From: a virus
Length of the DNA: 34,131 nt
Reading direction: 5' to 3' (one strand)
IMG/VR virus record: IMGVR_UViG_3300007735_000857
Span: 1 to 34,131 of that record
This document shows positions 4,560-30,872 of the stretch, piece by piece. Position 1 is the stretch's first letter. Each line of letters starts with the position of its first letter. Both the position numbers and the translations under genes were made by a program. Under the pieces are notes generated by a model. It saw nothing but the letters and a program-made list of their open reading frames with translations, had not been told where the DNA came from and did no database searches.

Positions 4560-4583
4560 CAAAGTGTGATTGTGTGGTACTAT
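4556..4583 (+). promoter_or_regulatory. Sigma70-like promoter before gene 55
   Basis: TTGACA (4556-4561), 16-bp spacer ending TGG, then TACTAT (4578-4583). The TG one base before the -10 makes it an extended -10 promoter. The predicted start near 4590 gives a ~12-nt leader with AAAGGGA (4592-4598) before ATG 4602. The -35 overlaps the stop codon of the preceding gene. Confidence 0.75.
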
Positions 4584-4601
4584 TCGTAATGAAAGGGAAT
4601 C

Positions 4602-12571: not shown

Positions 12572-13279
12572 ATGAGCAGACTCGTGATAAAGTTCCCGAC
12601 ACGGAACCGCCCTGAAAAGTTCAAGACCGTATTCACACGCTACATGACCTTCCTGAGCGGACGGCATGATGTGCGTTTTGTTGTCAGCATGGACGCAGAC
12701 GATGCCACCATGAACAACGATGCCATGCGCGAGTGGTTTGAGACTCGCAAGCGTAACGCAGACATCAAGTACTGCTATGGACACTCCAAGACCAAGATTC
12801 AAGCCTGCAATGCAGACATGGAAGGCGAAGACGGCGATGTGCTGCTGCTTGCTTCGGATGATATGAATCCGCAGCAGATGAGTTACGATGAAGTAATTTT
12901 CAAGTGCTTTGAGCAGGCATTTCCCGACTTTAGCGGAGCCATCAAGTTTTGGGACGGGCTACGCCCCAAGGAAGACCCCCTGATGACTCTTACAGTCATG
13001 GGCTTCCCCCTGTACAAGCAGTTTGGATATATTTACAACCCAGAGTATAAGTCCTTGTACTGCGACAACGAGCAGACAGCCGTTTGCCATCAGTTAGGTA
13101 AACTAGCCATTGCTCCGTATTGTATTATTCGTCACGAGTGGACAAATGAGCCGTTTGATACCCTTCACGCTCGTAACGAAAACAAGGACATGTACGATGT
13201 GGACAGCAAGACTTTTGAGGCTCGTAAAGCCAAGAATTTTGATATGGAGGTAATGTTCAATGCCAGTGCCAGCCGATGA
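12572..13279 (+). CDS. GT-A-fold glycosyltransferase-like protein
   Basis: A 235-residue protein opening the carbohydrate island. It starts with the strand LVIKFPTRNRPEKF typical of GT-A enzymes, has a metal-binding DxD-type motif in SMDADD (residues 40-44) and a second acidic motif ASDDMNP (94-100). The later HEWTNEPFDTLHARNENKDMY suggests a conserved phage-type glycosyltransferase. Donor and acceptor are unknown. A good ribosome site (AAGGAG, 12557-12562) precedes ATG 12572. Base composition here is still like the replication core, so this gene may be a long-standing neighbour of regA rather than part of the AT-rich insert. It overlaps the next gene by 20 bp. Confidence 0.72.
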   Translation: MSRLVIKFPTRNRPEKFKTVFTRYMTFLSGRHDVRFVVSMDADDATMNNDAMREWFETRKRNADIKYCYGHSKTKIQACNADMEGEDGDVLLLASDDMNPQQMSYDEVIFKCFEQAFPDFSGAIKFWDGLRPKEDPLMTLTVMGFPLYKQFGYIYNPEYKSLYCDNEQTAVCHQLGKLAIAPYCIIRHEWTNEPFDTLHARNENKDMYDVDSKTFEARKAKNFDMEVMFNASASR

Positions 13280-13892
13280 TATTTTGATTAGTATTCTAAT
13301 CCTTTCTATTCCTTCTCGCACAGAATCCGTTACTGCCTTGATGAAAAAGTTGGATGGGCAGTTGGGAAACCGTCGCTCTGTGGAGATTCTAGTTCTAACA
13401 GATAACCGATCACAGAGTATTTCAGAGAAGAGAAATGTTCTGCTTCGTGCTGCTCGCGGACAATTTGTGTGTTTCATGGACGACGATGATGGTATTGCTA
13501 ACGATTATATTGACCAACTGCTAAATGCAATAAAAGAGAACCCGTCAGTTGATTGTGTTTCGTTCAACCAATTCTGTTCTTTGGATGGTGAGCCTATGAA
13601 TGTAGAGTTTGGTATTGGAAATCCGCACGGGCAGTTGTGGCGAACCCAAGATGGAATGCTTGGAGATATCAAGCGTCCTCCGTACCATATGTGTCTGTGG
13701 CGGCGTGAAATTGCACAGAGTGAAGAGTTCCGTCCGATGTATAGTGCTAACGGTCAGTCTACAGAAGATATTGATTGGTTGATGCGGCTGTACCCAAAGG
13801 TTCAAACAGAACATCATATTGATGCACCTTTGCATATGTACATTTACAATTCAAATACAACTGCTTCTTTGGTTCCACAATCAGAACAATGA
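13260..13892 (+). CDS. Family 2-like glycosyltransferase
   Basis: A 210-residue protein. ISILILSIPSRTESV is the first strand and turn of family 2 glycosyltransferases, SEKRNVLLRAARGQFVCFMDDDD (residues 56-77) contains the helix and DxD-type metal/nucleotide motif of that family, and YSANGQSTEDIDWLMRL supplies the acidic catalytic-base region. It probably transfers one sugar from a nucleotide donor. It starts within the previous gene and ends in an ATGA overlap with the next, so it is translated as part of a chain. From about here the sequence becomes AT-richer. Confidence 0.8.
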   Translation: MPVPADDILISILILSIPSRTESVTALMKKLDGQLGNRRSVEILVLTDNRSQSISEKRNVLLRAARGQFVCFMDDDDGIANDYIDQLLNAIKENPSVDCVSFNQFCSLDGEPMNVEFGIGNPHGQLWRTQDGMLGDIKRPPYHMCLWRREIAQSEEFRPMYSANGQSTEDIDWLMRLYPKVQTEHHIDAPLHMYIYNSNTTASLVPQSEQ

Positions 13893-14599
13893 AAATTCTT
13901 CTAAATTATGCAAATGGCAAGTTCTTGGAATCGCAATTCAAGAACAGTCAAAGTGGTTTGGCAGCAGGATTCAATGTTGTGTATCAAATGGGTGGTTCTG
14001 ATATCGAGTCTTGTTTTAGTATTGCACACCACAATATCCTATCAGAAAAAAGAGGTGCGGGGTATTGGTTGTGGAAACCGTATTTCATCAATCGAATTTT
14101 GAAAAATATGAATGAGACAGATATTTTATTCTATTCTGATTCTGGTTCTATTTTTATTCGTAGAATGGAACCAATCTTTGATGCCGTTACTTCTGATCCT
14201 CGTGGAATAGTTGCTTTTGAATTGGCTGGAGGTCACATAGAAAAGCAGTATACTAAAATGGATTTGCTGAAATACATGAATATGGAAAGTTCAGAATATT
14301 CAGATTCTCCCCAAAGGATGGCTAGTTTTATGTGCTTTCGTGGGACACATGAAGCAAAGAGAATAGTTTCAGAATATCTTGAACTTGCAAAAAATCCACA
14401 CTTCATAACAGACACTCCAAATCAAAACGGATGGGTTGAGCCAAATTTTAAAGGACACAGACACGATCAATCCATATGGAGCCTATTGACAAAGAAGCAC
14501 AATGTGACTATACTGCGTGATCCCACACAATGGGGTCTACACCACAAAGAAACTACCGAAGAAGAAGTTTTCATTCACCACACCAGAGATCCACGATGA
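13889..14599 (+). CDS. Putative glycosyltransferase with GYWLWKP motif
   Basis: A 236-residue protein. The segment GAGYWLWKPYFI (57-68), followed by an acidic YSDSGS (82-87), is the pattern of a family of bacterial and phage proteins with a nucleotide-diphospho-sugar transferase fold found in polysaccharide loci. The C-terminal HRHDQSIWSLL and HHTRDPR would complete the active site. Substrate is unknown. It starts and ends with ATGA overlaps. A promoter-like sequence (14486-14514) lies near its 3' end. Confidence 0.65.
   Translation: MKILLNYANGKFLESQFKNSQSGLAAGFNVVYQMGGSDIESCFSIAHHNILSEKRGAGYWLWKPYFINRILKNMNETDILFYSDSGSIFIRRMEPIFDAVTSDPRGIVAFELAGGHIEKQYTKMDLLKYMNMESSEYSDSPQRMASFMCFRGTHEAKRIVSEYLELAKNPHFITDTPNQNGWVEPNFKGHRHDQSIWSLLTKKHNVTILRDPTQWGLHHKETTEEEVFIHHTRDPR
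14486..14514 (+). promoter_or_regulatory. Possible internal promoter in the glycosyltransferase cluster
   Basis: TTGACA (14486-14491), 17-bp spacer, TATACT (14509-14514); eleven of twelve consensus bases at ideal spacing, about 80 bp before the next start codon (14596). It uses the same -35/-10 pair as the intergenic uvsY and uvsE promoters. It is inside a gene, so it may be coincidental. Confidence 0.45.
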
Positions 14600-15396
14600 A
14601 GATTGAAAAAGTAATCGTATCAACCAATTCCAATCCGCTATACTTTGATTTTTGGAAATCGTTTTCGTATGTGTGGAAGGAAAAGATGGGAGCCGATCCT
14701 GTTCTGATATACATTGACAGCAGCCCTGATTCTGCTGAAATTGATGAGAGATGGGGTCAGGTTATTCGTGTAAAGACTGTTGATGGTGTTCCTGAATATT
14801 TGCAAACACAATGGTCACGATTTTTCTTTACTCGTCTGTTTCCCGATTCTGTTTGTATGACCAGTGATATTGATATGTACCCTTTACATAAGGGTTATTT
14901 CATGGATGAATTTCAATTTGATGGTAATTGGCATTTGCATCTTAATGGAAATGGTGTCACAGGAAGACACGATGATTGGATTAATGGTAAGTGTAATCTT
15001 AATGTCTGCTATCATGTGAATTACGGAAACCGTTTTGGTTCTTTATTTGAAATGGCGGATTCTTGGGAAGATGAGATTCGTAGACTTCATTCCATGAATC
15101 TAGGAAAAGATCAGTCTCAATGGGCAGAACACCTTAAGGGCATGGATAACTGGGGCGCAGAAGAAGACTACACTACTGCTGTATTACGCAGAAAGAGCAT
15201 AGATCAATCTGTAACTGTGTATAGCAAAGGACTGTACGGGCACAGATTTGATCGTTCGGCATGGGATCGTTGCAAGCAAGCAATTCCTTCACATCAATTT
15301 GTGGATTGTCACTCACTTCGTCCATTTCATCAAAATCAAAATCAAATTCTAGAAATTCTAAACCACTACCACGGAAATTTTGATGATTCCATCTGA
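14596..15396 (+). CDS. Putative glycosyltransferase (SDIDM motif)
   Basis: A 266-residue protein. VIVSTNSNPLYFDFW and VLIYIDSS form the expected N-terminal alternating strands, followed by SRFFFTRLFPDSVCMTSDIDMYPL, where SDIDM (90-94) is a DxD-like nucleotide-sugar/metal motif after a helix typical of small GT-A enzymes. NWGAEEDYTTAVLRR may hold the acceptor-side acidic residues. The end HQFVDCHSLRPFHQ carries His residues often found at the metal site of such enzymes. Specificity is unknown. It overlaps its neighbours at both ends. Confidence 0.66.
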   Translation: MKIEKVIVSTNSNPLYFDFWKSFSYVWKEKMGADPVLIYIDSSPDSAEIDERWGQVIRVKTVDGVPEYLQTQWSRFFFTRLFPDSVCMTSDIDMYPLHKGYFMDEFQFDGNWHLHLNGNGVTGRHDDWINGKCNLNVCYHVNYGNRFGSLFEMADSWEDEIRRLHSMNLGKDQSQWAEHLKGMDNWGAEEDYTTAVLRRKSIDQSVTVYSKGLYGHRFDRSAWDRCKQAIPSHQFVDCHSLRPFHQNQNQILEILNHYHGNFDDSI

Positions 15397-16210
15397 AGAA
15401 ATAATTAGCGGAAACAATCTAGCAGCAAAGTGCGACTATGTGTTTGCACAAATGTGTGCCACAGAACAAGGTGTGTTTCCTGTTTTTACAAAATACGCTC
15501 CGTCTTTTAAAGGTGGAGAAGTTGTTTTTTGTAAAACTGACTATATTGTTTCTCTGCGTGATGTTGTGAACCAGTTTGTTCCGCGCGATGTTCCATTCAC
15601 CATATTGACACACGACAGCGATTATGCTGTAACGAATGAGATGACACAACTATTCGCAGATAGACCAGTTAAATGGTATGGTATGAATTGTTCTACGGAA
15701 ACAGCAAGCCCAATTCCTATTGGTGTAGCAAATTCTTACTCCAAAGGAAATCTGAACGATTTTGAAAGAACAGTATCTCCTACTCGTCTGCTGTATGTGA
15801 ACAATCGTGTTCATAATTATCCAGATCTTCGGCAATGGCTGTATAATCATTTTTCTTCAAAGTCTTGGGCAACAATCCGAGTTCCATATGAACATGCTGG
15901 TATTGATCCACGATACAAAGAAGAATTGCTAGATCACAAATTTGTATTGTGTCCTCGTGGCAATGGAGTAGATACTCATAGAATGTGGGAAGCAATGTAT
16001 AGCGGAGTTATACCTGTAGTTGTTAGACACAGAACTCACGCATTACTTGAGGGGCAGTTGCCTATATTGTTTGTAGATGATTATTCTGAAGTGAACGAGC
16101 ATATGCTAAATGAAGCATATGAAAAATTCAGTAAGTCTGTTTGGAATATGGATATGCTGAAAGTTTCTTGGTGGATGGAATTCATACGGAGATGTGATTA
16201 TGCCTATTGA
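15383..16210 (+). CDS. Exostosin-like glycosyltransferase (GT47-type)
   Basis: A 275-residue protein. The segment KFVLCPRGNGVDTHRMWEAM followed by YSGVIPVV (residues 186-213) is the nucleotide-sugar-binding helix-turn of exostosin-type GT-B enzymes (a 'CPRG...RxWEA...GxIPVV' pattern). The enzyme would add a sugar to a growing glycan. A second, weakly similar protein is encoded at 16893-17705. ATG 15383 lies inside the previous gene; TTG 15380 directly before it is in frame but unlikely. The ribosome site is poor. Confidence 0.75.
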   Translation: MIPSEEIISGNNLAAKCDYVFAQMCATEQGVFPVFTKYAPSFKGGEVVFCKTDYIVSLRDVVNQFVPRDVPFTILTHDSDYAVTNEMTQLFADRPVKWYGMNCSTETASPIPIGVANSYSKGNLNDFERTVSPTRLLYVNNRVHNYPDLRQWLYNHFSSKSWATIRVPYEHAGIDPRYKEELLDHKFVLCPRGNGVDTHRMWEAMYSGVIPVVVRHRTHALLEGQLPILFVDDYSEVNEHMLNEAYEKFSKSVWNMDMLKVSWWMEFIRRCDYAY

Positions 16211-16889
16211 TATAAAGACTATTGTTCTTCATTATAAGCCTTTAAAAGAAAGAAAGGCTAATATGATTAATCAGTTGGACAGGTTTGGTTTTTCGGATTA
16301 CTCTTTCTATGAAGAGTTTGATGGAAATGAACTAACACAGGAAATAATAGATCAACATTGTGTTCGTAAACACATGGATTGGAATACCGTTGCACATAAA
16401 ATTTCACTTTGGAATATAGGTATTGAAACACAAAGAGAACTGAATCCTGCTGAACTGTCTCTTACAATCAAACACGGAAAGGTGTTTCAACAGTTGTCGG
16501 AACAAGAAGGAGATGTGTTCATTATCTTTGAGGATGATGTTATTCTGTGCAACGATTTTGATAAGCATTTTAATGAATATCTTTCAAGAACACCTGATGA
16601 TTGGGATGTTATTCATTTTGGTAGTGGTGCTGGTTTGAAAGCACCAAACACAACTCCTGATAAAATTGCGTATCGCATAAACCATCCCGCATCCAGATGC
16701 ACAGATTCTATATTACTAAAAAAGTCTGCCCTAAAGGATTTGGCTAAAACATGGTTCCCATTTCACTTGATTTGTGATTATGAGTTGGGATATCAGCATT
16801 ATCTTCACAATCACAATGTTTATTGGTGGGAGCCGGGTTTGGTAAAGCAGGGATCAGAACATGGAATCTTTAAAAGCGTATTGAGATAA
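16200..16889 (+). CDS. Family 25-like glycosyltransferase
   Basis: A 229-residue protein. TIVLHYKPLKERKANMINQL (N-terminal strand and helix), SLTIKHGKVFQQL and FIIFEDDVIL with E111-D112-D113 match the GT25 (LPS biosynthesis/LgtB-type) family, in which the EDD motif binds the donor and metal. DWDVIHFGSG continues the family pattern. Such enzymes add galactose or glucose to lipooligosaccharide or to hydroxylysine. GGAG (16188-16191) lies 8 nt before ATG 16200, which decides against the in-frame GTG at 16194. Confidence 0.78.
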   Translation: MPIDIKTIVLHYKPLKERKANMINQLDRFGFSDYSFYEEFDGNELTQEIIDQHCVRKHMDWNTVAHKISLWNIGIETQRELNPAELSLTIKHGKVFQQLSEQEGDVFIIFEDDVILCNDFDKHFNEYLSRTPDDWDVIHFGSGAGLKAPNTTPDKIAYRINHPASRCTDSILLKKSALKDLAKTWFPFHLICDYELGYQHYLHNHNVYWWEPGLVKQGSEHGIFKSVLR

Positions 16890-16892
16890 ATT

Positions 16893-17705
16893 ATGCACAA
16901 GATAATCAACAATCTTAGAGGTCGTGAATTTCATGGTAAAGATGAAGCAGAATATTTTGAATCAATAGTCTCACATATTCACACAAAAGAGGATCATACA
17001 TTTGTTTTCTCTGTTTGGAATGAACCTCTTGGAGACATTCCGAATGGTTCTATAGTTTTTTCTACTTCAGATGAACACCACCAACAGCCAATTGCCGATC
17101 ATCTTCAGAAGAATGTTTTTCTTCTTTTTAAGAATTACTATCCAACAGATCCAATTTGCGATAGTCGGGTGTTTCCTTTTCCCCTTGGATACCTTACAAA
17201 TTTCTCTGGCACACATTCCATTCCAATAAACGAAAGAGAATTTGATTATTCTTTCGCAGGAACTTTCAATGGAAATGGCAGAGACAAGATGTGTAGAGAA
17301 TTGGAAGCACGAAAAAATGATGGTAAAAAGAAATTTTGTGCCATCACTCATAGTTGGGGTAAAGGATTGAGTATGGATGAATACAGCAAATTGCTGTCAC
17401 ATACAAAGATTTCTTTGTGTCCTAGTGGATATGTTAGCAAAGAGTCGTTTAGAATATTTGAGGCTGCTCGTTGTGGGTGTATTCTTATTGTTGATGATGT
17501 TCCCACAAATCTATGGTATTATGACGAGTTTCCCGGTATAATCCTTAAAGATTGGTCTGATATTTCTATTATTGAGCGTCTATTGTCAGACCCCGATAAG
17601 ATGCAGGATATTAGTAATAAGACTATTCGTTGGTATGAACGGTGCATATCACCCAAGTCGGTTGCATCATATGTTCAGAGCAAAATAGAAGAGAAGACAA
17701 CATGA
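16893..17705 (+). CDS. Exostosin-like glycosyltransferase (second copy type)
   Basis: A 270-residue protein. RVFPFPLGYLTNF and DYSFAGTFNGNGRDKM precede KISLCPSGYVSKESFRIFEA and ARCGCILIVDD (172-202), the same sugar-nucleotide-binding layout as the protein at 15383-16210 (LCP-x-G, R-x-x-E-A, G-x-I). The two look like diverged relatives rather than a recent duplication. Role and substrate are unknown. No ribosome site is evident before ATG 16893, which is only 3 bp after the previous stop, so re-initiation is likely. It ends in an ATGA overlap. Confidence 0.72.
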   Translation: MHKIINNLRGREFHGKDEAEYFESIVSHIHTKEDHTFVFSVWNEPLGDIPNGSIVFSTSDEHHQQPIADHLQKNVFLLFKNYYPTDPICDSRVFPFPLGYLTNFSGTHSIPINEREFDYSFAGTFNGNGRDKMCRELEARKNDGKKKFCAITHSWGKGLSMDEYSKLLSHTKISLCPSGYVSKESFRIFEAARCGCILIVDDVPTNLWYYDEFPGIILKDWSDISIIERLLSDPDKMQDISNKTIRWYERCISPKSVASYVQSKIEEKTT

Positions 17706-18601
17706 AGATTAAATTCATAGCAGGATGGAATACTGACTATAACATATACTCCTTTGTCAATGACATATGGAATATGGATGGTAAGTATGACGATATTCTA
17801 ACATATAATGATGACTATACGCATTTGGTCATATTCAATGGTGTCAATAATTCTAACTACAGAATAGAGAAGGAAACCACATACGGTATTGTCGTGGAGC
17901 CGTATTGGAGTACTTCCTTTGATAAAAATATGCTGTCTTATTGCAAGAAGATCGTGACCTATCAGACAGACAAATATGAAGCAGGGAGAACCATATTCAG
18001 CCCATTGATAGGAACACATAGACTATATGATCTTGGGGAAGACGGCGAGATTATTCCTATTCCAAATACCACCAAAAATCTGTTGTCTAAAAAATTTGAA
18101 AAGAATAAGACTCTATCCATCATTGTTGCTAATCATGGATTTGATACTAGGTCTTATACAAATTACAACCATCGTCAAAATTTAGTGGTACAGTTGATGA
18201 ATTCCGATCTAGAATTTGATATGTATGGATTTGGATGGCACATTCCGGATAGACGATTTAAGGGACCACTAATAAACAAGATAGACGGAATAGCAAACTA
18301 CAAATACACAATTGCTCTTGAAAACAGTCCTGTTAGTGGTGAAATAACTGAAAAAATCATTGATGCCATATTGTGTGATACCATTCCAATTTACAATGGT
18401 CATAAAGACATCAAAAAGTTTTATCCAAATTCGTGTGAATATTTGGAGTATGATGGTAAAGAGATAAATAGGATAAGAGAGATCATCAACAGCAACAAGA
18501 CAGTAAGCGACTACGATTTTGATGATGCAAAAAATAGGTACTTTAATTTATACAATCCCATCCAAATAGTGTTAGACGACATCATAAAATACCAATACTA
18601 A
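17702..18601 (+). CDS. GT10-type fucosyltransferase-like protein
   Basis: A 299-residue protein. YKYTIALENSPVSGEITEKI and IDAILCDTIPIYNG (200-233) reproduce the GT10 alpha-1,3/4-fucosyltransferase signature, where a 'F/L-E-N-S' and a 'T-E-K-I...A...G/D-x-x-P-I/V-Y' segment bind GDP-fucose. FDMYGFGW precedes it, as in bacterial GT10 enzymes. It would transfer L-fucose, or a related GDP-linked sugar, to a glycan. The context fits: a GDP-fucose/colitose-synthase-like gene (25463) and a colitose-type dehydratase (18611) are nearby. ATG 17702 overlaps the previous stop. Confidence 0.8.
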   Translation: MKIKFIAGWNTDYNIYSFVNDIWNMDGKYDDILTYNDDYTHLVIFNGVNNSNYRIEKETTYGIVVEPYWSTSFDKNMLSYCKKIVTYQTDKYEAGRTIFSPLIGTHRLYDLGEDGEIIPIPNTTKNLLSKKFEKNKTLSIIVANHGFDTRSYTNYNHRQNLVVQLMNSDLEFDMYGFGWHIPDRRFKGPLINKIDGIANYKYTIALENSPVSGEITEKIIDAILCDTIPIYNGHKDIKKFYPNSCEYLEYDGKEINRIREIINSNKTVSDYDFDDAKNRYFNLYNPIQIVLDDIIKYQY

Positions 18602-18610
18602 GAATACATT

Positions 18611-19771
18611 ATGATTTGTGAAAACAAGCCGTGGAAATTGATGGATGATCGTGCTGTCACGAAAGAAGATCGTGAAAAAATGTGTGAGTTTATTATGAGC
18701 AATCAAAAACTCTCATATGGCGAAAAATGCAAAGAGTTGGAGCGTCTTTGGTCTGAATGGCTAGGAGTTAAATATAGCGTTTTTGTTAATTCGGGATCGT
18801 CTGCCAATCTTATACTTGTTCAGGCTATGCACGATCTATATGGTCGCGGTGATTGGGTTGCTCAATCGTGTACATGGGCAACAAATATTTCTCCGATATT
18901 ACAATTAAAGAACAGCAGTCAGGGTATTTACATGACTGATGTTGATATGAAAACCCTTGGAATGCGTCTTGAAGATGTAGAACACTACATCAAAACCCAA
19001 AATGTTAGATATTTATTTGTGACTCATGTTCTTGGTATGCCGTGTATCAGTGAAAGATTGCTTGACATTTGCAAAAACCACGATATAATACTCTTGGAAG
19101 ATTGTTGTGAATCTCACGGTAGTATTTGGAATGGGAAAAAGGTTGGCACATTTGGAAAAGCATCTACCTTTTCTTTTTTCTATGGGCATCACATCACCTC
19201 TATTGAGGGAGGCATGGTATGCACAGACGATGAAGCCCTATATCATCATCTACTACTCTTGCGATCTCATGGTATGCTTAGAGAATTACCAGAAGAAGAA
19301 AGACAAAAAAGGAAAGTCGATGGAGTTGATGAGAGATTTACCTTTTTATGTAATGGATACAATGTAAGAAATACCGACTTGAATGCTGTTCTGGGTATTT
19401 CTCAAATGGCTCGTCTTGATAAATCGGTTAGTATCAGAGAAAGAAATTTTAAAATTTATCTTGAAGGACTAGATTCCTCAAAGTATCATACCGATATGAA
19501 TCATCAAGGAGCCAGTCTTTTTTCTTTCCCCATAATCAGAACAGATGGCAACATACATAAGGTTGCAGAAGTCTTGAAGAACAACGAAATTGACAACAGA
19601 CCTCTGATTGCTGGAAATCTGTTTAGACACCCAATGATGAATGGAGTCAATACATTCATAGTTAAAGGAAATGCAGATTTCATTCACGATAATAGTTTGT
19701 ATGTTGGAAACAATGAGTTTGTGGAACTTGATGATGTAAACCGATTGGTGAGAATATTAAATGCGATATAG
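18611..19771 (+). CDS. ColD-like PLP-dependent sugar 3-dehydratase (DegT/DnrJ family)
   Basis: A 386-residue fold-type I PLP protein (E. coli ColD is 388). The N-terminal half has NSGSSANLILVQA (60-72), TDVDMKTLGM and LLEDCCESHG (161-170; D164 faces the PLP ring). At the site of the Schiff-base lysine (normally ...GKN/K-x-T...EGG), it has YGHHITSIEGG, with His193 in place of lysine. That swap defines dehydratases such as ColD and the E1/RfbH type, which remove the 3-hydroxyl, rather than aminotransferases. ColD turns GDP-4-keto-6-deoxymannose into GDP-4-keto-3,6-dideoxymannose. No iron-sulfur Cys cluster typical of RfbH E1 is seen, so ColD is preferred. It overlaps the next gene by 11 bp. Confidence 0.85.
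   Translation: MICENKPWKLMDDRAVTKEDREKMCEFIMSNQKLSYGEKCKELERLWSEWLGVKYSVFVNSGSSANLILVQAMHDLYGRGDWVAQSCTWATNISPILQLKNSSQGIYMTDVDMKTLGMRLEDVEHYIKTQNVRYLFVTHVLGMPCISERLLDICKNHDIILLEDCCESHGSIWNGKKVGTFGKASTFSFFYGHHITSIEGGMVCTDDEALYHHLLLLRSHGMLRELPEEERQKRKVDGVDERFTFLCNGYNVRNTDLNAVLGISQMARLDKSVSIRERNFKIYLEGLDSSKYHTDMNHQGASLFSFPIIRTDGNIHKVAEVLKNNEIDNRPLIAGNLFRHPMMNGVNTFIVKGNADFIHDNSLYVGNNEFVELDDVNRLVRILNAI
19062..19089 (+). promoter_or_regulatory. Consensus sigma70 promoter inside the ColD-like gene
   Basis: TTGACA (19062-19067), 16-bp spacer, TATAAT (19084-19089): a perfect match to both hexamers, with the same 16-bp spacing as the intergenic promoters. It lies 670 bp before the transketolase-methyltransferase gene and codes for part of LLDICKNHDIILLED. 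It could drive the downstream sugar genes, but no gene starts close by, so chance in AT-rich sequence is possible. Confidence 0.45.
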
Positions 19772-21110
19772 TAATGAAAGAAAAAAGATGGTGGCAAAAG
19801 TTGTTCAACTTGCTCACGATAGCAAGGAAGGGCATATTCCAAGTTCACTATCTGTTCTTGATATGGTGTATGGGCTATACCAAGAGCATATTACGAAAAA
19901 CTCAGATCATAAGTTTGTGTTGTCCAAGGGACATGCTTCTCTTGGGTTGTATGTTGTTCTGGATCATTTTGGGATATTGAATGCTGATCTGAATTCCTTT
20001 TGTAAATTTGATTCTCTGTTAGGAGGTCATCCCAATCTTAAAATACCTGCTATTGAAGCATCCACAGGTTCTCTAGGACACGGTATGCCAATTGCTGTTG
20101 GAATGGCTATGGCAAAAAAGATACAGGGAACGGGTGGTACTGTATTTGTTTTGATTGGTGACGGTGAAGCAAACGAAGGAACTATATGGGAATCTGCTTT
20201 GCTAGCAAGCCATCATAAGTTGAACAATCTTGTTTGTCTTTTGGATCACAATCATTCTACCGATAGGGCTGTTGATATTGGCGATATTATGTCTAAATTT
20301 TCTTCTTTTGGTTGGCACACAGAGGAAATAGATGGTCACGATATTGATGCTATAACTTCAATACAACCATGTTCTAACAAGCCTATTTTTGTGTTGTGCA
20401 ATACCACTAAAGGGAAGGGAATAGACATGATGGAGAACAATCCAGAATGGCATCACAAATCTCCAACAAGTGAACAGGTTCTTTCTATACTAAAGGATCA
20501 AATTGTGTTTGATGGTGTCGTGAATACCGCACTATCAAGAAATGGAAGTGGGCAGACTGAAGATGAATTTTTTATCTTGGCTGAAATTGTAGAAAGATGT
20601 AATAGCATATCGGGAGACTTTGCTGAAATTGGTATCTATTGTGGAGTGACAAGTGAACTGATATTTACATTGAAAGATAAAAATAAGACTCTTTTTTTGT
20701 GTGATACTTTTAGTGGGTTGGTCGATGTTGAAACGGATGACAGTTTAAAGAATGGATTTGCCTCTTTTTCTTATCAAGATTTTTGCAAAATAAACAGTTA
20801 TGTGAACGAAAAGGAAGTTAGAGTAGTAGATGGTTATTTTCCAACTTCTGCTACAGAGGAAATGAACAGTACCAAATATTCATTTGTCCATCTAGATGTG
20901 GATACCTACAAATCAACGATTAAAGGTTTAGAATATTTTAGTAACAGAATGTCTACAGGTGGTTTTATTGTTGTCCACGATTATCGTAATTCAATCTGTC
21001 AGGGTGTTAAAAAAGCGGTTGATGAATTTATGATAGAAAAACAAGGTGAATTTATGCTTGAAACATATCCAAAACAAAACAGCACCCAAGCAATCATAAG
21101 AAGAGTTTAA
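19761..21110 (+). CDS. Transketolase N-terminal subunit fused to TylF-like methyltransferase
   Basis: A 449-residue fusion. Residues 1-250 are the pyrophosphate-binding half of a transketolase: HDSKEGHIPSSLS, LSKGHAS (54-60), GSLGHGMPIAVGMA (103-116), and the thiamine diphosphate motif GDGEANEG (133-140) with N164 closing the GDG-N pattern. Residues from about 265 are a class I SAM methyltransferase of the macrocin-O-methyltransferase (TylF) type: FAEIGIYCGVTSE (motif I, 288-300), HLDVDTYKST (378-386, metal-binding Asp) and VVHDY (404-408). The frame is open throughout, with no stop or split between the halves. The C-terminal transketolase half is the next gene. A two-carbon transfer to a sugar plus O-methylation is inferred. 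Confidence 0.88.
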   Translation: MRYSNERKKMVAKVVQLAHDSKEGHIPSSLSVLDMVYGLYQEHITKNSDHKFVLSKGHASLGLYVVLDHFGILNADLNSFCKFDSLLGGHPNLKIPAIEASTGSLGHGMPIAVGMAMAKKIQGTGGTVFVLIGDGEANEGTIWESALLASHHKLNNLVCLLDHNHSTDRAVDIGDIMSKFSSFGWHTEEIDGHDIDAITSIQPCSNKPIFVLCNTTKGKGIDMMENNPEWHHKSPTSEQVLSILKDQIVFDGVVNTALSRNGSGQTEDEFFILAEIVERCNSISGDFAEIGIYCGVTSELIFTLKDKNKTLFLCDTFSGLVDVETDDSLKNGFASFSYQDFCKINSYVNEKEVRVVDGYFPTSATEEMNSTKYSFVHLDVDTYKSTIKGLEYFSNRMSTGGFIVVHDYRNSICQGVKKAVDEFMIEKQGEFMLETYPKQNSTQAIIRRV

Positions 21111-21111
21111 T

Positions 21112-21987
21112 ATGAGAAAGCAATTTGTAAAAACAATAAAAGATATTCTTTACGCTGATGAAAAAACAGTTCTTCTTCTTGGTGATATTGGAGTGTTTGG
21201 ATTCAGAGATGAACTAAAAAATATTCCTACCCGTGCTTACAATATCGGGATACTAGAACAAAGCACAATAGGAATTGCTGCGGGAATGGCGAAGGGAGGT
21301 CTTGTCCCGTTTGTGCATACTATAGCACCTTTTATAGTAGAGCGAGCGTTTGAGCAACTAAAGGTAGACTTTGGATATCAAGAACTGAATGGTAACTTTA
21401 TCAGCGTTGGTGGATCATACGATTATGCGGCACTAGGATGTACTCACCATTGTCCTGCTGATATTTCTTTGATGGCATCTATCCCAAACATGGAAATAGT
21501 CATTCCCGGTACAGCATCGGAGTTGGATTCTCTTATAAAGCAAACATACAATAGTGGAAATCCGACATATACTCGTATCAGCGAGACACAGCACACAGAA
21601 ACCATTCCTGTTAAATTTGGATGTGCTAATGTAATTAAGCAAGGAAAAACAGCGACCGTTGTGTGTTTTGGCCCAATGCTAAAACAAGTAATGGAAGCCA
21701 CAGAGAATATGGATGTTACATTACTATACTATAGCACAATTCTTCCATTTGATAACAAAACTCTGCTTGACAATTTCAACGAAACTGTTATCATATGCGA
21801 ACCATTCTATGAAGGAAGTACCAATCACCTAATTGATCTTGCTCTTGTAGGAAAAGCATATAGGAAGTTTAATATAGGTGTACCCCGTAAATTTCTTACT
21901 AACTACGGGCACAAAGAAGAACATGATAGTTTTCTTGGTTTGGATTCAATAGGAATAAAGGAGAAGATTCAGAGATGCTTAATTTGA
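21112..21987 (+). CDS. Transketolase C-terminal subunit
   Basis: A 291-residue protein matching the pyrimidine-binding and C-terminal domains of a split transketolase/DXS-type enzyme. NIGILEQSTIGIAAGMA holds the catalytic Glu (E49) that activates thiamine diphosphate, VPFVHTIAPFIVERAFEQLK follows, and VGGSYDYAALGCTHHCPADI is the family's next conserved block. With the N-terminal half in the preceding gene (1 bp away), it should form an active heterodimer-type enzyme that moves a ketol unit. Split versions of this enzyme are found in secondary-metabolism and sugar-modification gene sets. A promoter-like sequence (21767-21794) sits near its end. The assignment to sugar branching is inferred. 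Confidence 0.87.
   Translation: MRKQFVKTIKDILYADEKTVLLLGDIGVFGFRDELKNIPTRAYNIGILEQSTIGIAAGMAKGGLVPFVHTIAPFIVERAFEQLKVDFGYQELNGNFISVGGSYDYAALGCTHHCPADISLMASIPNMEIVIPGTASELDSLIKQTYNSGNPTYTRISETQHTETIPVKFGCANVIKQGKTATVVCFGPMLKQVMEATENMDVTLLYYSTILPFDNKTLLDNFNETVIICEPFYEGSTNHLIDLALVGKAYRKFNIGVPRKFLTNYGHKEEHDSFLGLDSIGIKEKIQRCLI
21767..21794 (+). promoter_or_regulatory. Possible internal promoter before the SDR gene
   Basis: TTGACA (21767-21772), 16-bp spacer, TATCAT (21789-21794), about 180 bp before the next start codon. Eleven of twelve consensus bases and the same spacing as other promoters in the window, but within coding sequence. Confidence 0.33.
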
Positions 21988-23015
21988 TAAATGAAAATTG
22001 TGAGAAAGTAATTTCGTCTTTAGATTTCTCTTCGCTAAAAAATAAAAGAATATTGGTAACAGGAGCAAGTGGACTGATTGGAGTTCACATGGTTTCTGTT
22101 CTAAAAAATCTAAAAGAAAAATACAACTACGATATCGACATTTGGTGTTGGGTATTTTCCAATATTGAACCTTCTTTTCGTGAATTATTCAAGGGTTGCG
22201 TGGTTCTAAAGTCAGATTTGACAGATTCAAAAAACATAGAAAGCGTTGGTCAGATTCTTGCAGAAACGCTTTCTGGATTCGATGTAATCATACACGCTGC
22301 TGGTTACGGTCAGCCTCAAAAATTTACCTCCAACAAAGTAAAGACAATAGAACTGAATACCCATGCAACGATAAATCTGTTCAAACTATTGAATAATGGA
22401 GGTTCCTTCTTGTTCTGTAGCACTAGCGAGATTTATAGCGGAATTAATGAGGAAGGAATAGACGAGTCTAGGATAGGCACAACTCTACCAAATCATCCAC
22501 GCGCTTGTTATATTGAAGGAAAGAGATGTGGAGAAGCAATATGCCAATCTTTTCTTGAAATGGGTTACAATACAAAAATTGCTAGAATAAGTCTGGCATA
22601 TGGCCCAGGAACCAAAGCGAATGATGCTAGGGTCATCAGCAATCTGATTGACAAAGGACTAAAAAATTCAAGAATAGAACTACTTGATAGTGGATGTTCT
22701 ATAAGAACATATGGATACATTACAGACATCGTAGAAATGCTATTCAATATTCTTCTTCACGGAAAGCAGACTGTTTATAATGTTTCAGGAGTTTCTAAGG
22801 TTTCTATTCTTGAACTTGCACAAAAAATAGGAAAAGAATTGAACTGTGATGTTGGGGTTCCATCATCAGAGAACATGGCTCTATCTGGAAATCCAAAGGT
22901 TGTAAACATGAGCATCAACAGATACCTGAATGAGTTTGGGGCAAAACAATTTGAGCCTATAAATACAGGACTGTGTAAGACTATAGAATGGCAAAAATAT
23001 CTTCACGCTATTTGA
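21975..23015 (+). CDS. NAD-dependent sugar epimerase/dehydratase (extended SDR)
   Basis: A 346-residue extended short-chain dehydrogenase. RILVTGASGLIG (G30, G33, G36) binds NAD(P), IIHAAGYGQPQKF is the family's second motif, CSTSEIYSG supplies the catalytic Ser/Thr and YIEGK the Tyr-x-x-x-Lys pair. IRTYGYITDIVEML is the usual C-terminal substrate region. The closest general types are UDP-glucuronate decarboxylase and dTDP-glucose dehydratase relatives; the exact reaction cannot be read. In this neighbourhood a reduction or epimerisation of a keto sugar made by the ColD-like or transketolase-like enzyme is plausible. GGAG (21960-21963) precedes ATG 21975, which overlaps the previous gene by 13 bp. 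Confidence 0.83.
   Translation: MLNLINENCEKVISSLDFSSLKNKRILVTGASGLIGVHMVSVLKNLKEKYNYDIDIWCWVFSNIEPSFRELFKGCVVLKSDLTDSKNIESVGQILAETLSGFDVIIHAAGYGQPQKFTSNKVKTIELNTHATINLFKLLNNGGSFLFCSTSEIYSGINEEGIDESRIGTTLPNHPRACYIEGKRCGEAICQSFLEMGYNTKIARISLAYGPGTKANDARVISNLIDKGLKNSRIELLDSGCSIRTYGYITDIVEMLFNILLHGKQTVYNVSGVSKVSILELAQKIGKELNCDVGVPSSENMALSGNPKVVNMSINRYLNEFGAKQFEPINTGLCKTIEWQKYLHAI
22958..22965 (+). promoter_or_regulatory. Possible late promoter (exact TATAAATA)
   Basis: An exact TATAAATA, the T4 late promoter, on the coding strand 65 nt before the methyltransferase start at 23030 and inside the end of the SDR gene. It also encodes codons of that gene, and the surroundings are AT-rich, so chance occurrence is a real alternative. 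Confidence 0.4.
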
Positions 23016-23029
23016 TGAAAGGTAATTTG

Positions 23030-23944
23030 ATGAAGACTATAACAAAAAATGATATTGAACAAATTCTAGGCATGAAAGTTCCACATTTTGTGTCTAGTGA
23101 CATGGAGAAGAATCCTCTACAATATGAGGATTTGACACCTGAACAGTTAGAAAAATATCTAATTCATGTGGTGAAGGTTTTGCTTGCTGATATTACAAGA
23201 TGTGGAGAGCATCGTTTGGTGGAATGGGAAGAAGGATGGAATCAAAATTTACAGGAGTTTTGCAACACAAAAAACCCATCTTCTTTGATTCCAAAGTACC
23301 ACGGTAAGAATAGGTATGTTCGTTGGATGGGAAAAATTGTCAATCCTATTACCCATCATTTTGACTATAGAATACACACCTATATGGTTGATACAGTTCT
23401 AAATTCATACATGGAAGGAATTGAAAATGTTTATGAATTTGGTTGCGGTCCGGCGTATCATCTTTTGAGAATGCAAAATAACTATCCCGATAAGTGCTTG
23501 CATGGATTGGATTGGACTTCTTCTTCGCAAGACATAATCGGAAAAATAAACTCATCTGTGGGTACAGATATAAAGTGCCACCGATTTAATTTTTTTGAAC
23601 CAGATAGACAATTTGATCTCAAGCCAAATAGCATGGTATACACGATTGCTGCATTAGAGCAGGTTGGTGATAGATTTGTTGATTTTGTGGAATATCTTAT
23701 AGAGAAAAAACCAAAAGTTTGCATCCACATGGAACCCATGTCGGAACTTTTAGACGAAAATAGTGTAGTTGATTTTCTTTCCATAGAATATTTTAAGAAA
23801 CGCAATTATCTATCAGGATTCCATTCTCATCTGCTTCAACTAGAAAAAGAGGGTAGAATAGAAATCATCTCTAGTAAAAGAACATATAGCGGAAGTTATT
23901 TCATAGAAGGACATTCGTTAGTAGTTTGGAAACCAAAAGATTGA
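23030..23944 (+). CDS. SAM-dependent methyltransferase-like protein
   Basis: A 304-residue protein. VYEFGCGPAYHLLRMQ (about residues 130-145) is SAM-binding motif I, HGLDWTSSSQ holds the acidic residue after the second strand, and VYTIAALEQVGDRFVDFVEYL is motif IV/post-IV. The first ~120 residues form a separate N-terminal region of unknown role. It probably methylates a sugar or lipid-linked glycan given its neighbours. AAAGG (23018-23022) lies 7 nt before ATG 23030; in-frame ATG 23015 (overlapping the previous stop) and ATG 22988 are alternatives. A 22-bp gap follows. Confidence 0.75.
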   Translation: MKTITKNDIEQILGMKVPHFVSSDMEKNPLQYEDLTPEQLEKYLIHVVKVLLADITRCGEHRLVEWEEGWNQNLQEFCNTKNPSSLIPKYHGKNRYVRWMGKIVNPITHHFDYRIHTYMVDTVLNSYMEGIENVYEFGCGPAYHLLRMQNNYPDKCLHGLDWTSSSQDIIGKINSSVGTDIKCHRFNFFEPDRQFDLKPNSMVYTIAALEQVGDRFVDFVEYLIEKKPKVCIHMEPMSELLDENSVVDFLSIEYFKKRNYLSGFHSHLLQLEKEGRIEIISSKRTYSGSYFIEGHSLVVWKPKD

Positions 23945-23965: not shown

Positions 23966-24556
23966 ATGCCATTAGTCCAAATGCGAGGCGGCGATATGAC
24001 TGTTGGGTTACAAGAATTGTGTGGTGCAATAAAGCAACATCTTGGAAATAAAGAAGATCCAAATATTGTTGAAATTGGTAGTTACTGTGGAGAATCTACC
24101 CTAATCATAAACAGTTGTTTTACGAATGCAACTATAAATTCTGTTGATCCTTATGTCTCATATAGAGAAGATAATTCGACATACGATCTTGACAATCAGG
24201 CACAGGAACTAAAGGAAGCAGAAAAAGTGTTTGATTCCATCTGTAAGCGATTTCCAAACATCAAGAAAAATAAAGCACATAGTCTAGAATTTGTGAATTC
24301 TGTTCCCAACAATTCTTTGGATTTTGTTTACATAGACGGAGATCATTCTTATGCTGCGGTAAAAAAAGATATTGTTGCTTGGATTCCAAAAGTCAAGATT
24401 GGTGGTGTCATTTGTGGACACGATATTACATGGCAAACTGTTCGCAAGGCATTGGTTGAGGTTTTTTGTGGACAGCAACCTAATGGAGTTTTCAAAGACA
24501 GTAGTTGGGCTTATGTTAAAACACCAGAACTAAATGAGTATTTTTGTGGAGAATAA
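23966..24556 (+). CDS. Class I methyltransferase (Methyltransf_24 type)
   Basis: A 196-residue protein. NIVEIGSYCGEST (about 33-45) is SAM motif I and LDFVYIDGDHSYAAVKKDI (about 117-135) followed by KIGGVICGHDI is the pattern of the small Methyltransf_24 family, in which DGDHSY binds metal or substrate. Similar proteins occur in phage and bacterial glycan gene sets and methylate sugars. The C-terminal part of the fusion at 19761 is a related fold but a different subfamily. AAAGAAAG precedes ATG 23966. The stop is followed at once by the next start (24558). Confidence 0.8.
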   Translation: MPLVQMRGGDMTVGLQELCGAIKQHLGNKEDPNIVEIGSYCGESTLIINSCFTNATINSVDPYVSYREDNSTYDLDNQAQELKEAEKVFDSICKRFPNIKKNKAHSLEFVNSVPNNSLDFVYIDGDHSYAAVKKDIVAWIPKVKIGGVICGHDITWQTVRKALVEVFCGQQPNGVFKDSSWAYVKTPELNEYFCGE

Positions 24557-24557
24557 A

Positions 24558-25466
24558 ATGCTATTATCAATTCTTATTGGTGGAAAAAACGACAATTACG
24601 CAGCAGACGAAAACGGAAAAGGTGGGGTTCACAAAAGACTTGAACTCACTCTGAATAAAATGATAGACAATCTTCGTAGACTTGGCAAAGATGATATTGA
24701 GGTTGTCGTGTGTGATTGGGGAAGCGAAGATAAGATTTCTGATGCTTTGGTAAAAGAGCGACATCCCAATATGAAGTTTGTGTATGTGTCTCCTGATATA
24801 ACAAAAAAGTACAATGGAAAGGCATCCTATTCTATTGTTCATCCGTATAATGTATCCTTTAAGCACAGCAAAGGCGAGTACATTATTTTTTGGGACTCCG
24901 ATTGTTTTATGCCATACGAGGAGATAGAGAATCTTTATAATTTTGTAAAGGGGCTATCTGCCAATAAAGAGAAAAAGTTCTACCAAGGATCGCGTTTCCA
25001 TATCCCGCGTGTAGGATATGTTGATGCTGCTTCATACCATGATGTGGATGAGTATTTGAAGACCTGTATTGTAGACACAAAAACAACACTAAGACCAACC
25101 AACGATGCGGATAATTTTGTAAATCACCATATGCTTCGTCACAACAAAGTAAATGTTGATGCGTTTAATGGAACTGCTATGGCAACTCTAATGCACAGAG
25201 ATATTGCCGAAGACAGCACTTGTTGGTGGGAAGAATTGAGTTATTGGGGATGGCAAGATGTTGAATTCCATATTCGTTTGAATAGAAAATATATTTGCGG
25301 TGGTGATATGGAAGATTTTGGAGTAAAGTTTTTTCATCTATATCACTACGAGCCATTTGAAGGCAAAGAAAAACCTATTATGAATGATTATTTGATGCCA
25401 AGTAAATTTAGGGCAAATGGTAAAAATTGGGGGCTTGCTAACGAAACTTTGGAGGTGATTTCGTGA
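24558..25466 (+). CDS. Family 2-like glycosyltransferase
   Basis: A 302-residue GT-A enzyme. LLSILIGGKNDNY begins the fold, IEVVVCDWGSEDKIS holds the nucleotide-binding Asp, KGEYIIFWDSDCFMP contains the DSD metal motif, and CWWEELSYWGWQDVEFHIRL has the W-G-x-x-D/E block typical of the catalytic-base region in the polypeptide GalNAc-transferase/chondroitin-synthase branch of family 2. A galactosyl- or GalNAc-type transfer is possible but unproven. GGAG lies before ATG 24558; the in-frame ATG at 24534 lies inside the previous gene. It ends in a GTGA overlap. Confidence 0.82.
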   Translation: MLLSILIGGKNDNYAADENGKGGVHKRLELTLNKMIDNLRRLGKDDIEVVVCDWGSEDKISDALVKERHPNMKFVYVSPDITKKYNGKASYSIVHPYNVSFKHSKGEYIIFWDSDCFMPYEEIENLYNFVKGLSANKEKKFYQGSRFHIPRVGYVDAASYHDVDEYLKTCIVDTKTTLRPTNDADNFVNHHMLRHNKVNVDAFNGTAMATLMHRDIAEDSTCWWEELSYWGWQDVEFHIRLNRKYICGGDMEDFGVKFFHLYHYEPFEGKEKPIMNDYLMPSKFRANGKNWGLANETLEVIS

Positions 25467-26371
25467 ACACTCTAGTACTAGGTGGAAGCGGTATGCTTGG
25501 TTCTGTTGTTGATTTTGGTCTAAAGCCAACTAGACAAGAACTAGATATTTTAAACTATGATAGTCTCCATGAGTATATTATTGCAAATGATGTTGATGAA
25601 ATAATTCACGCCGCTGGTGCAGTAGGTGGAGTAAAAGCAAATAATGATTATATGTATGATTTTTTTATGGATAACATTCGTATGAATGTGAATGTCATAA
25701 GAGCATGTAAAGAACATAAAATCAAGAAAGCAACATTTTTCCTATCAACATGTGTTTTCCCTAACCACGCATCTCTTCCTTTAGTTGAAGGTGCTATACA
25801 TCAAGGAGAACCACATCCAACAAATTTCGGATATGCTTACGCAAAAAGAATGTTGGAAGTTGGTTCTAGATGCCTACTAAAACAATACGGAATACACACA
25901 TCGTGTATCATTCCTTGCAATATGTACGGCGAAAACGATAACTATCATTTAGAAAATGGTCATGTTATACCAAGTCTTATTCATCGTTGTTACTTGGCAA
26001 AGAAAAACAATGCAGATTTTATAGTTTGGGGATCAGGTAAGGCAGAAAGAGAATTTTTATATGCTCGTGATATGGCTAATGTTTTGAAACTTCTTCATTC
26101 AAATACCAATCAGTCAATTCCTCATCTGATGATTGTTTCTCCGGAAATCATACATTCTATATCTGAAGTAGTTTATTGCATAGTAAAGCATATCGGATTT
26201 CAAGGAAAAGTGGTTTTTGATTCTACTAAATCAGAGGGAATAATGAAGAAAAATACGGATAATTCTTTATTCCGAAAACACTTTCCAGACTTCAAATTTA
26301 CCGATCTAGATACAGGGTTGGCAAATTCTATTGAATACTTTGTAAAAAACTACGAAAAAGTCAGAAAGTGA
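25463..26371 (+). CDS. GDP-L-fucose/GDP-L-colitose synthase-like (Fcl/ColC family)
   Basis: A 302-residue extended SDR. GGSGMLG binds NADPH; HAAGAVGGVKANN (49-61) is the Fcl-specific second motif; the catalytic residues are S95, C97 (in LSTCVFP), Y124-x-x-x-K128 and H167 (GHVIPSLIHRC), with NMYGENDN in between. IVWGSGKAEREFLYARDMA is the substrate region. Fcl epimerises and reduces GDP-4-keto-6-deoxymannose to GDP-fucose; ColC, a homolog, does the analogous step on the ColD product to make GDP-colitose. Both the ColD-like and the GT10-like genes are in the same island. The GTG start has a strong ribosome site, GGAGGTGA (25451-25458). Confidence 0.86.
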   Translation: MNTLVLGGSGMLGSVVDFGLKPTRQELDILNYDSLHEYIIANDVDEIIHAAGAVGGVKANNDYMYDFFMDNIRMNVNVIRACKEHKIKKATFFLSTCVFPNHASLPLVEGAIHQGEPHPTNFGYAYAKRMLEVGSRCLLKQYGIHTSCIIPCNMYGENDNYHLENGHVIPSLIHRCYLAKKNNADFIVWGSGKAEREFLYARDMANVLKLLHSNTNQSIPHLMIVSPEIIHSISEVVYCIVKHIGFQGKVVFDSTKSEGIMKKNTDNSLFRKHFPDFKFTDLDTGLANSIEYFVKNYEKVRK

Positions 26372-26378
26372 AAATACC

Positions 26379-27320
26379 ATGAAAGCACTAGTAACAGGTG
26401 GAGCAGGTTTCATAGGATCAAATCTGGTTGATCGGCTTATTGCAGACGGTCACGATGTCACGGTTATTGACAACGAATCATCAGACGCACACGATCAGTT
26501 CTATTGGAACCCTGCTGCCAAGAACTATAAGTACGACATCAACGACTATACAATGGTTAGTAAACTGTATGAGGGTGTGGATACGGTTTTTCATCTTGCT
26601 GCGGAAGCCCGTATTCAGCCGTGTATTATCAACCCCATAAAGGCTGTGGAAGCCAATATGCTTGGTACGGCTAGTGTGTTGCAGTGCGCTCGTGTGTGTG
26701 GCGTGAAGCGGGTGATCTACTCGTCCACATCCTCTGCTTATGGATTGAAGAATATTCCTCCTCTTGTAGAGACAATGCCCAACGATTGCCTGAATCCGTA
26801 TTCTGTTTCCAAGACGGGCGGCGAGGAGTTGTGCAAGATGTATTCCAAACTGTACGGCTTGGAGACAATCGTGTTCCGCTACTTTAATGTGTACGGTGAG
26901 CGTCAACCCCTGCGTGGTCAGTACGCGCCAGTGATTGGCATTTTCCTGCGTCAACGAGCCGCAGGAGAACCCATGACTATTGTGGGTGACGGTGAACAGC
27001 GGCGCGACTTTACCCATGTGAGTGATGTGGTGGAAGCCAATCTCAAGGCTTCACGATTCGTGGCTCCTGAATACAATGTCACCGACAACGGTTCGTGCCA
27101 AACTTATCGCGGATGGGAATGGGGTCAGGTGTACAATATTGGTACAGGAACCAACCATTCCGTAAATCAGATTGCTGAACTGATGGGGGGAGAAACTGTG
27201 AATATTCCACCCCGCGCAGGCGAATCCCGAATTACACTTGCAAACGCAAACAAGGCAAAGGAACATCTTGGATGGACTGCCCAAGTTCGTCTTGAAGACT
27301 GGATTGCCGAGCATAAATAA
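26379..27320 (+). CDS. NAD-dependent sugar-nucleotide 4-epimerase-like (GalE/WbpP type)
   Basis: A 313-residue extended SDR. ALVTGGAGFIGSNL binds NAD, FHLAAEARIQ is the second motif, YSSTSSAYG holds the catalytic Ser/Thr and Y141-x-x-x-K145 (PYSVSKTGGE) is the catalytic pair. FNVYGERQPLRGQYAPVI and GDGEQRRDFTHVSDVV are the substrate-binding parts of UDP-hexose 4-epimerases and their relatives. It would interconvert UDP-sugars, for example UDP-GlcNAc/GalNAc or UDP-Glc/Gal. Its base and codon composition returns to that of the replication core, unlike the AT-rich genes just upstream, so it probably belongs to an older layer of the island. Confidence 0.85.
   Translation: MKALVTGGAGFIGSNLVDRLIADGHDVTVIDNESSDAHDQFYWNPAAKNYKYDINDYTMVSKLYEGVDTVFHLAAEARIQPCIINPIKAVEANMLGTASVLQCARVCGVKRVIYSSTSSAYGLKNIPPLVETMPNDCLNPYSVSKTGGEELCKMYSKLYGLETIVFRYFNVYGERQPLRGQYAPVIGIFLRQRAAGEPMTIVGDGEQRRDFTHVSDVVEANLKASRFVAPEYNVTDNGSCQTYRGWEWGQVYNIGTGTNHSVNQIAELMGGETVNIPPRAGESRITLANANKAKEHLGWTAQVRLEDWIAEHK
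27312..27319 (+). promoter_or_regulatory. Possible late promoter (CATAAATA)
   Basis: CATAAATA overlaps the stop codon of the epimerase gene and matches seven of eight bases of the T4 late promoter. A predicted start near 27325 leaves a short leader with AAGGAGA (27327-27333) before ATG 27340. The arrangement is well suited to late expression of the next genes. Confidence 0.5.
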
Positions 27321-30866: not shown

Positions 30867-30872
30867 GTGGGC

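Follow-up and report, generated by a model that had tools for sequence, protein, structure and literature searches.

The 34,131-base virus record IMGVR_UViG_3300007735_000857 from IMG/VR (hereafter the window, meaning the whole stretch of DNA analysed) encodes a protein in which the N-terminal subunit of a split transketolase is joined in a single open frame to a TylF-type O-methyltransferase. The frame (19761-21110, + strand, ATG start) is 449 amino acids long, and a second fusion of the same two domains is found in another phage. We suggest a function in which the fused transketolase subunit, together with the C-terminal subunit encoded by the next gene, branches a GDP-3,6-dideoxy-4-ketohexose, and the fused domain O-methylates that sugar or a later product; we give this proposal an even chance of being correct.

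A preliminary description had read the frame as a thiamine diphosphate (ThDP)-binding transketolase subunit joined to a TylF-type methyltransferase. Its coordinates are right, and Pfam finds both domains: Transketolase_N at residues 18-251 (E 1e-31) and TylF (PF05711) at residues 280-426 (E 5e-14), the latter scoring 52.6 bits against a gathering cut-off of 23. The N-subunit occupies residues 1-246 (19761..20498), the junction is made by the codons CAA (residue 247), ATT and GTG (residue 249; 20499..20507), and the S-adenosylmethionine (SAM)-dependent O-methyltransferase domain runs from about residue 249 to residue 449 (20505..21107). The AlphaFold model has two largely well-folded domains, with many blocks at a predicted local distance difference test score (pLDDT) of 85-97 and a weak stretch at 319-344. 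A helix (237-259) spans the junction with lower confidence there, and the predicted template modelling score of 0.62 leaves the mutual placement of the two domains unsure. One base past the stop codon begins the gene (21112-21987, + strand, ATG start, 291 amino acids) that had been described as the matching C-subunit with the catalytic Glu; it does contain Transket_pyr (E 1e-19) and Transketolase_C, and the glutamate is E49. The fusion frame itself starts 11 bases inside the end of a DegT-family gene (18611-19771), and a gene for a short-chain dehydrogenase/reductase (SDR; 21975-23015) overlaps the C-subunit gene by 13 bases. With these two overlaps and a gap of a single base, translation of the four genes is probably coupled.

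The second fusion (locus L030; open reading frame 3989-5308, 439 amino acids) lies on a separate 141,843-base phage contig. The two proteins are 52% identical over 423 residues with no break at the junction, and both domains are intact in each. Because an independent contig carries the same fusion, we conclude from the sequences that the one in the window is not a one-off sequencing error, and chance joining or a frameshift artefact was rejected as the full explanation. Between residues 207 and 267 the L030 fusion contains no in-frame ATG, GTG or TTG, so its methyltransferase could hardly be produced except as part of the fusion. The preliminary description had held that separate genes in all relatives would argue against a functional fusion; the genes are indeed separate in nearly all relatives, but not in L030. 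Among the 69 distinct phage N-subunits fetched, 67 stop near residue 246 and two, the window and L030, are fused; the C-terminal extension of the relatives' N-subunits is mostly 0-20 amino acids, and one of 34.

The fusion is absent from every bacterial or archaeal locus compared, 80 in number and the best of at least 589 relatives; in each of them the N-subunit stands alone. Nor was it found among the matches listed for 285 Omnitrophota genomes (E<=1e-40), in 380 genomes from the phylum of relative G002 (Magasanikbacteria; E<=1e-60), in 398 genomes from the phylum of relative G008 (Methylophilaceae; E<=1e-60) or in 187 genomes of the family of G008 (E<=1e-50), all searches that weaker matches would escape. 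With none found in these sets, a bacterial origin of the fusion was rejected. The scans of sequence collections were pattern-based. No PHROGs family matches the transketolase parts, the sequenced phage records gave no close relative (weak matches of 25-39% identity, none spanning most of the fusion), and no transketolase-methyltransferase fusion is among the PDB sequence matches. Literature searches likewise found no described enzyme with this layout, as the preliminary description had supposed. A 437-residue open frame in genome G006 was considered as a further fusion and rejected, being an unfused 285-residue gene within a long stop-to-stop frame. The enzyme is phage-encoded and the usual state of its two domains is as separate genes.

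The space between the two transketolase genes is a site of insertion in phages. By an automatic, approximate measure of this gap, one or two extra genes are present in about 18 of the 54 SDR-linked phage cassettes and in none of the 16 SDR-linked bacterial cassettes. The cargo varies and may be a Methyltransf_24-type, FkbM-like or 281-residue protein or a stand-alone TylF-type relative; relatives of the Methyltransf_24 protein that the window carries elsewhere (23966..24556) sit in this slot in other phages. Stand-alone TylF-type relatives, 39-49% identical, are found directly before the C-subunit gene in L010, L012, L015 and L043, and in L043 the TAA of the N-subunit is followed directly by the methyltransferase gene, with no change of frame. 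The gene for the 281-residue protein (MKASKSLIINTREYG..., possibly a glycosyltransferase) is located at L010:4526-5371, L012:4523-5368, L017:5154-5999 and L028:4716-5564, and overlaps the N-subunit stop in the first three. In L004:5998-8756 (IMGVR_UViG_3300027972_000007, a 170-kb phage contig) about 1 kb with two short open reading frames parts the transketolase genes. In L011:5451-9649 (IMGVR_UViG_3300045125_000172) the methyltransferase, SDR, glycosyltransferase GT2 and fucose-synthase-like genes are each broken across frames, a pattern that frameshifts would produce, whether through decay or through faulty assembly.

Trees place the two fusions apart. In the N-subunit tree, the window groups with the unfused L001 and L008 (support 100/99), to whose stand-alone N-subunits it is 80% identical, L030 groups with the unfused L052 (95/93), and a single clade of both fused forms is rejected (approximately unbiased (AU) test, p 4.8e-5). 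The slot methyltransferases form one group (98/89 in the larger tree, 76/76 in the smaller), in which the window domain groups with the stand-alone L010 and L012 (100/99) and the two fused forms are not sisters (AU p 1e-3). A single ancestral fusion kept in both lineages was rejected on these two values; two separate fusion events are the simplest reading, the alternative being an older fusion followed by repeated splitting. The window fusion probably began with a methyltransferase gene that inserted between the transketolase genes, after which the upstream stop codon would have been lost. The joining codon CAA at 20499 is one transition away from TAA, and the window's tCAAATTGtG resembles the stop/start tTAAATTGaG of its close unfused relative L001 (at this site L001 has ggtTAAattgag and the window gatCAAattgtg); because the stretch is short, the likeness is only suggestive as a trace of the lost stop.

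Such an origin could have been of no consequence for function. Gene shuffling followed by loss of a stop codon would give a harmless read-through, in which the two domains act as they would alone and on unrelated sugars. That the same slot holds unrelated genes, that the L043 methyltransferase lies in frame directly behind a TAA and that the joining codon of the window is one transition from the same stop all fit this explanation, and we regard it as a real, if minority, possibility. It sits less well with a TylF-type fusion that arose at least twice (or split repeatedly) in separate lineages, and with L030, whose methyltransferase has no start of its own near the junction while both domains remain intact. 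Two fusions among about four lineages with this TylF-type methyltransferase in the slot modestly favour coupling, and the recurrence in a second virus points to a functional link between the two steps.

The transketolase half appears competent for ThDP chemistry. The best PDB sequence match of the N-subunit is 6yak, a split-gene transketolase (E 5e-46), which is also the first fold match of the N half of the AlphaFold model, and that of the C-subunit is 6yaj, the C-chain of the split transketolase (E 4e-25). The best-matching families are transketolase/DXS, not acetolactate synthase. The predicted GDG...N motif is found at G133-D134-G135...N164, and all checked ThDP and proton-relay residues of Escherichia coli TktA are retained: D134, N164, H25, H58, H90 and H231 correspond to TktA D155, N185, H26, H66, H100 and H261, and E49 of the C-subunit to the catalytic E411. 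The equivalent of E411 is present in 137 of 137 C-subunits and that of H473 in all but one, which is gapped there. The position of TktA H461 is Gly in the larger alignment and His in one of the 137. The position of R520, a phosphate ligand, is Glu or Asp in 55 of the 64 SDR-linked C-subunits (42/48 phage, 13/16 bacterial) and Lys or Arg in most other split transketolases (46/61 bacterial, about 8/12 phage). The acidic residue suggests that the substrate is not the sugar phosphate of ordinary transketolases; the loss of H461 and R520 would lower the case for a classical sugar-phosphate transketolase, not that for a predicted ThDP ketol-transferase. Across the C-subunits of L001-L185, the residue at the R520 site is a possible marker of substrate type.

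These residues bear on a second explanation, in which the product of the transketolase is a sugar in free or phosphorylated form (a ketose, or a precursor of a heptose or pentose) destined for glycans, or in which the enzyme feeds the pentose-phosphate pathway of the host. Carbon-metabolism genes are common in T4-like cyanophages, and the enzyme keeps the ThDP core of an ordinary transketolase. However, the phosphate ligand R520 is replaced by Glu or Asp in most of the family, genes for nucleotide sugars and for glycosyltransferases adjoin the transketolase genes in both phages and bacteria, and the annotated genes of the window include none of the pentose-phosphate pathway. We consider this explanation improbable. 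A TAA misread as CAA, or a methyltransferase also made separately from GTG 20505 or ATG 20427/20430, would draw on the joining codon being one base off a stop and on a possible start at the internal GTG (residue 249), whose Shine-Dalgarno-like match is moderate (-4.7 kcal/mol) and not distinctive (15% of the window's start triplets do as well), and is very improbable given the collinear L030 fusion with no start codon near its junction.

The methyltransferase domain has motif I (EIGIYCG) at 289-295, the predicted DVDTYK at 379-384 and HDY at 406-408. Its profile matches are NovP (2wk1, E 3e-15), 5i10/4cdz and MycF (4x7u), and stand-alone homologues are present in L010, L012 and L043. The acidic metal triad of NovP and MycF is D...DDY. 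D379 is kept in the fusion, and DDY reads HDY (H406-D407); His406 could still bind the metal.

The setting of branched-chain sugars put forward in the preliminary description is supported by the gene immediately upstream, on the same strand. The DegT protein (18611..19771) matches ColD (PDB 2gms/3gr9, E 1e-58 to 6e-60), and in its GHHITSIEGG motif His193 aligns with the active-site His of ColD, exactly where the variant 3b8x has Asn. As His replaces the lysine that holds pyridoxal phosphate (PLP), we read the protein as a sugar 3-dehydrase of the ColD/RfbH type, the maker of 3,6-dideoxy-4-ketosugars like the acceptor of yersiniose synthesis. Wherever a phage cassette has a DegT gene in range (27 of 27), it is of the His type. 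In Pelagibacteraceae (L124, L127, L153 and L173), DegT relatives near split transketolase genes have Ser at the Lys/His position (FYGSHVISCAGN). Downstream, the extended SDR (21975..23015, + strand; NDP (nucleoside diphosphate)-sugar epimerase/reductase type, Pfam Epimerase E 2e-33) belongs to a type that is a constant neighbour of the C-subunit, accompanying 54 of 69 phage and 16 of 80 bacterial N-subunits. Genes resembling GDP-mannose dehydratase (GMD) and GDP-fucose synthase recur across the cassettes, and with the upstream GT10 gene they suggest that the cassette sugars are GDP-linked. In bacteria of unrelated phyla (L106, L107, L108, L109, L110, L112, L113, L114 and L117) the order is N-subunit, C-subunit, SDR, often with GDP-fucose-synthase-like, 318-residue methyltransferase-like or ColD-like genes next to them, and it seems that glycan loci of many kinds of bacteria carry the same sugar pathway.

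We infer a role in nucleotide deoxysugar synthesis from the ColD-type His, the recurring GDP-sugar genes and the replacement of R520, and propose the order of steps because the known yersiniose pathway runs from a 3-dehydrase through a ThDP enzyme to a reductase. The ColD-type enzyme would supply a 3,6-dideoxy-4-ketohexose, probably GDP-linked. The fused N-subunit and the separate C-subunit would assemble into an alpha2beta2 ThDP ketol-transferase. This enzyme would place a two-carbon unit (hydroxyacetyl) on the 4-ketone, giving a branched tertiary alcohol. The adjoining SDR would then reduce the branch or epimerise the sugar, the TylF-type domain would methylate a hydroxyl of the branched sugar or of a later product, and the cassette glycosyltransferases would attach the finished sugar to a phage or host glycan. 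The stricter version, a bifunctional enzyme whose two domains act in sequence on one nucleotide sugar to give an O-methylated two-carbon-branched 3,6-dideoxyhexose, is rather unlikely. Several observations weigh against the proposal as a whole. Of the two aspartates that bind the metal in NovP and MycF, the first is His in the fusion, so the mechanism of the methyltransferase may differ. Most relatives are without this methyltransferase, which is therefore not essential to the transketolase step, and the window's nearest relatives, L001 and L008, have no methyltransferase between the transketolase genes. GMD is not present on this 34-kb fragment, and no solved structure or assay of an NDP-ketosugar transketolase was found.

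The window carries T4-like phage genes (gp23, tail tube, UvsY, UvsW, gp46/47-like proteins, RNase H, gp45, gp44, gp62-like and RegA). Its UvsW is nearest to that of Methylophilales phage Melnitz (52%), then to those of marine and cyanobacterial T4-like phages (49-50%), and the host is probably an aquatic bacterium. The glycan cassette, about 16 kb and wholly on the + strand, is placed between RegA and a dUTPase (29314-29859) and contains glycosyltransferases (GT2, GT25, GT10 and GT47-like), the DegT protein, the transketolase genes, several SDRs and methyltransferases. By Pfam, its upstream block (13260..18601) comprises GT2 (13260-13892), two GT47/RXYLT1-like genes (15380-16210 and 16893-17705), GT25 (16194-16889) and a GT10 fucosyltransferase-like gene (17642-18601). 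After the SDR come a 318-residue protein (22988..23944), the Methyltransf_24 protein (Pfam E 2e-16), a GT2 glycosyltransferase (24534..25466, Pfam E 2e-9), a GDP-L-fucose-synthase-like SDR (25463..26371, PDB match to GDP-L-fucose synthase E 1e-65), an SDR epimerase/dehydratase (26379..27320, Pfam E 2e-56; like UDP-glucose 4-epimerase in the PDB, E 5e-49) and a closing GT2 glycosyltransferase (27340..28575, Pfam E 5e-12). The 318-residue protein has no Pfam, NCBIfam, PHROG or sequenced-phage match; its AlphaFold2 model (pLDDT 94) is matched by Foldseek to SAM C-/O-methyltransferases and predicts a class I fold. It comes after the transketolase-SDR genes in many phages (alignment A7) and is found in bacterial genomes as well, for example of Patescibacteria, Omnitrophota and Bdellovibrionota. 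Elsewhere the window encodes a zinc-dependent cytidine/dCMP-type deaminase (1665-2222), a UvdE-type UV endonuclease (30867-31796) and a Mom-like DNA-modification protein (32184-33101).

If the stricter version of the proposal is true, the enzyme would be the first of the transketolase class proven to branch sugars and the first to do so on a GDP-sugar, and physical coupling of transketolase and methyltransferase would have been selected at least twice in phages. The chemistry, if it holds, would close a gap pointed out in a recent review, as split transketolases have been proposed for sugar branching and none shown (PMC12247030). The genes of the cassette are short and lie together, their catalytic residues are intact, and many natural variants exist in which the methyltransferase is present or absent, fused or separate. 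T4-like phages that infect aquatic bacteria would carry a rare-deoxysugar pathway, with no close match in the sequenced phage records searched, that bears on how phages alter virion or host-surface glycans.

Among known systems, the split transketolase of Carboxydothermus hydrogenoformans (6yaj/6yak) is likewise one alpha2beta2 ThDP enzyme from two genes; it is without a methyltransferase domain, and at the R520 position its C-chain has Arg, against Glu in the phage protein. Searches of the literature for split transketolases with nucleotide sugars or in cyanophages found none. The fused domain belongs by Pfam and profile (NovP, MycF) to the family of TylF, MycF and NovP, from which it differs in being shorter, joined to a transketolase subunit and phage-encoded, and in having HDY, not DDY. 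The 18611-19771 protein shares with ColD (GDP-4-keto-6-deoxymannose 3-dehydratase) the His at the Lys position. In colitose synthesis the step after ColD is epimerisation/reduction by ColC, whereas in the phage cassette the ColD-type gene is followed by a ThDP enzyme. The parallel with yersiniose and avilamycin drawn in the preliminary description holds for the branched-chain-sugar setting and not for the class of enzyme. YerE (yersiniose; proven) and ErwE (erwiniose) are also ThDP enzymes that branch a 3,6-dideoxy-4-ketohexose, but they are single-gene members of the YerE-like decarboxylase superfamily (acetolactate-synthase-like) and use a 2-keto-acid donor and a CDP-sugar (PMC12247030); the phage enzyme is of the transketolase class. 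AviB1/AviB2 (avilamycin) and Pau11/Pau12 (paulomycin) are also two-gene ThDP enzymes, for which extension of a ketosugar by a two-carbon branch is proposed, of the alpha-ketoacid-dehydrogenase type with pyruvate as donor (PMC4753412, PMC12247030); the phage N-subunit is not of this type, as Transketolase_N outscores E1_dh (E 3e-8). A closer precedent, the likeness being by description, is provided by the split transketolases proposed to add hydroxyacetyl to a ketosugar in miharamycin and amipurimycin biosynthesis (PMC12247030). These two belong to Streptomyces secondary metabolism, and the review mentions no fused methyltransferase; it lists 13 putative Streptomyces sequences, all split-gene and none tested in vitro (PMC12247030). 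The phage system, as predicted here, is of the transketolase class, lies beside ColD-type and GDP-sugar genes and is in two cases fused to a methyltransferase.

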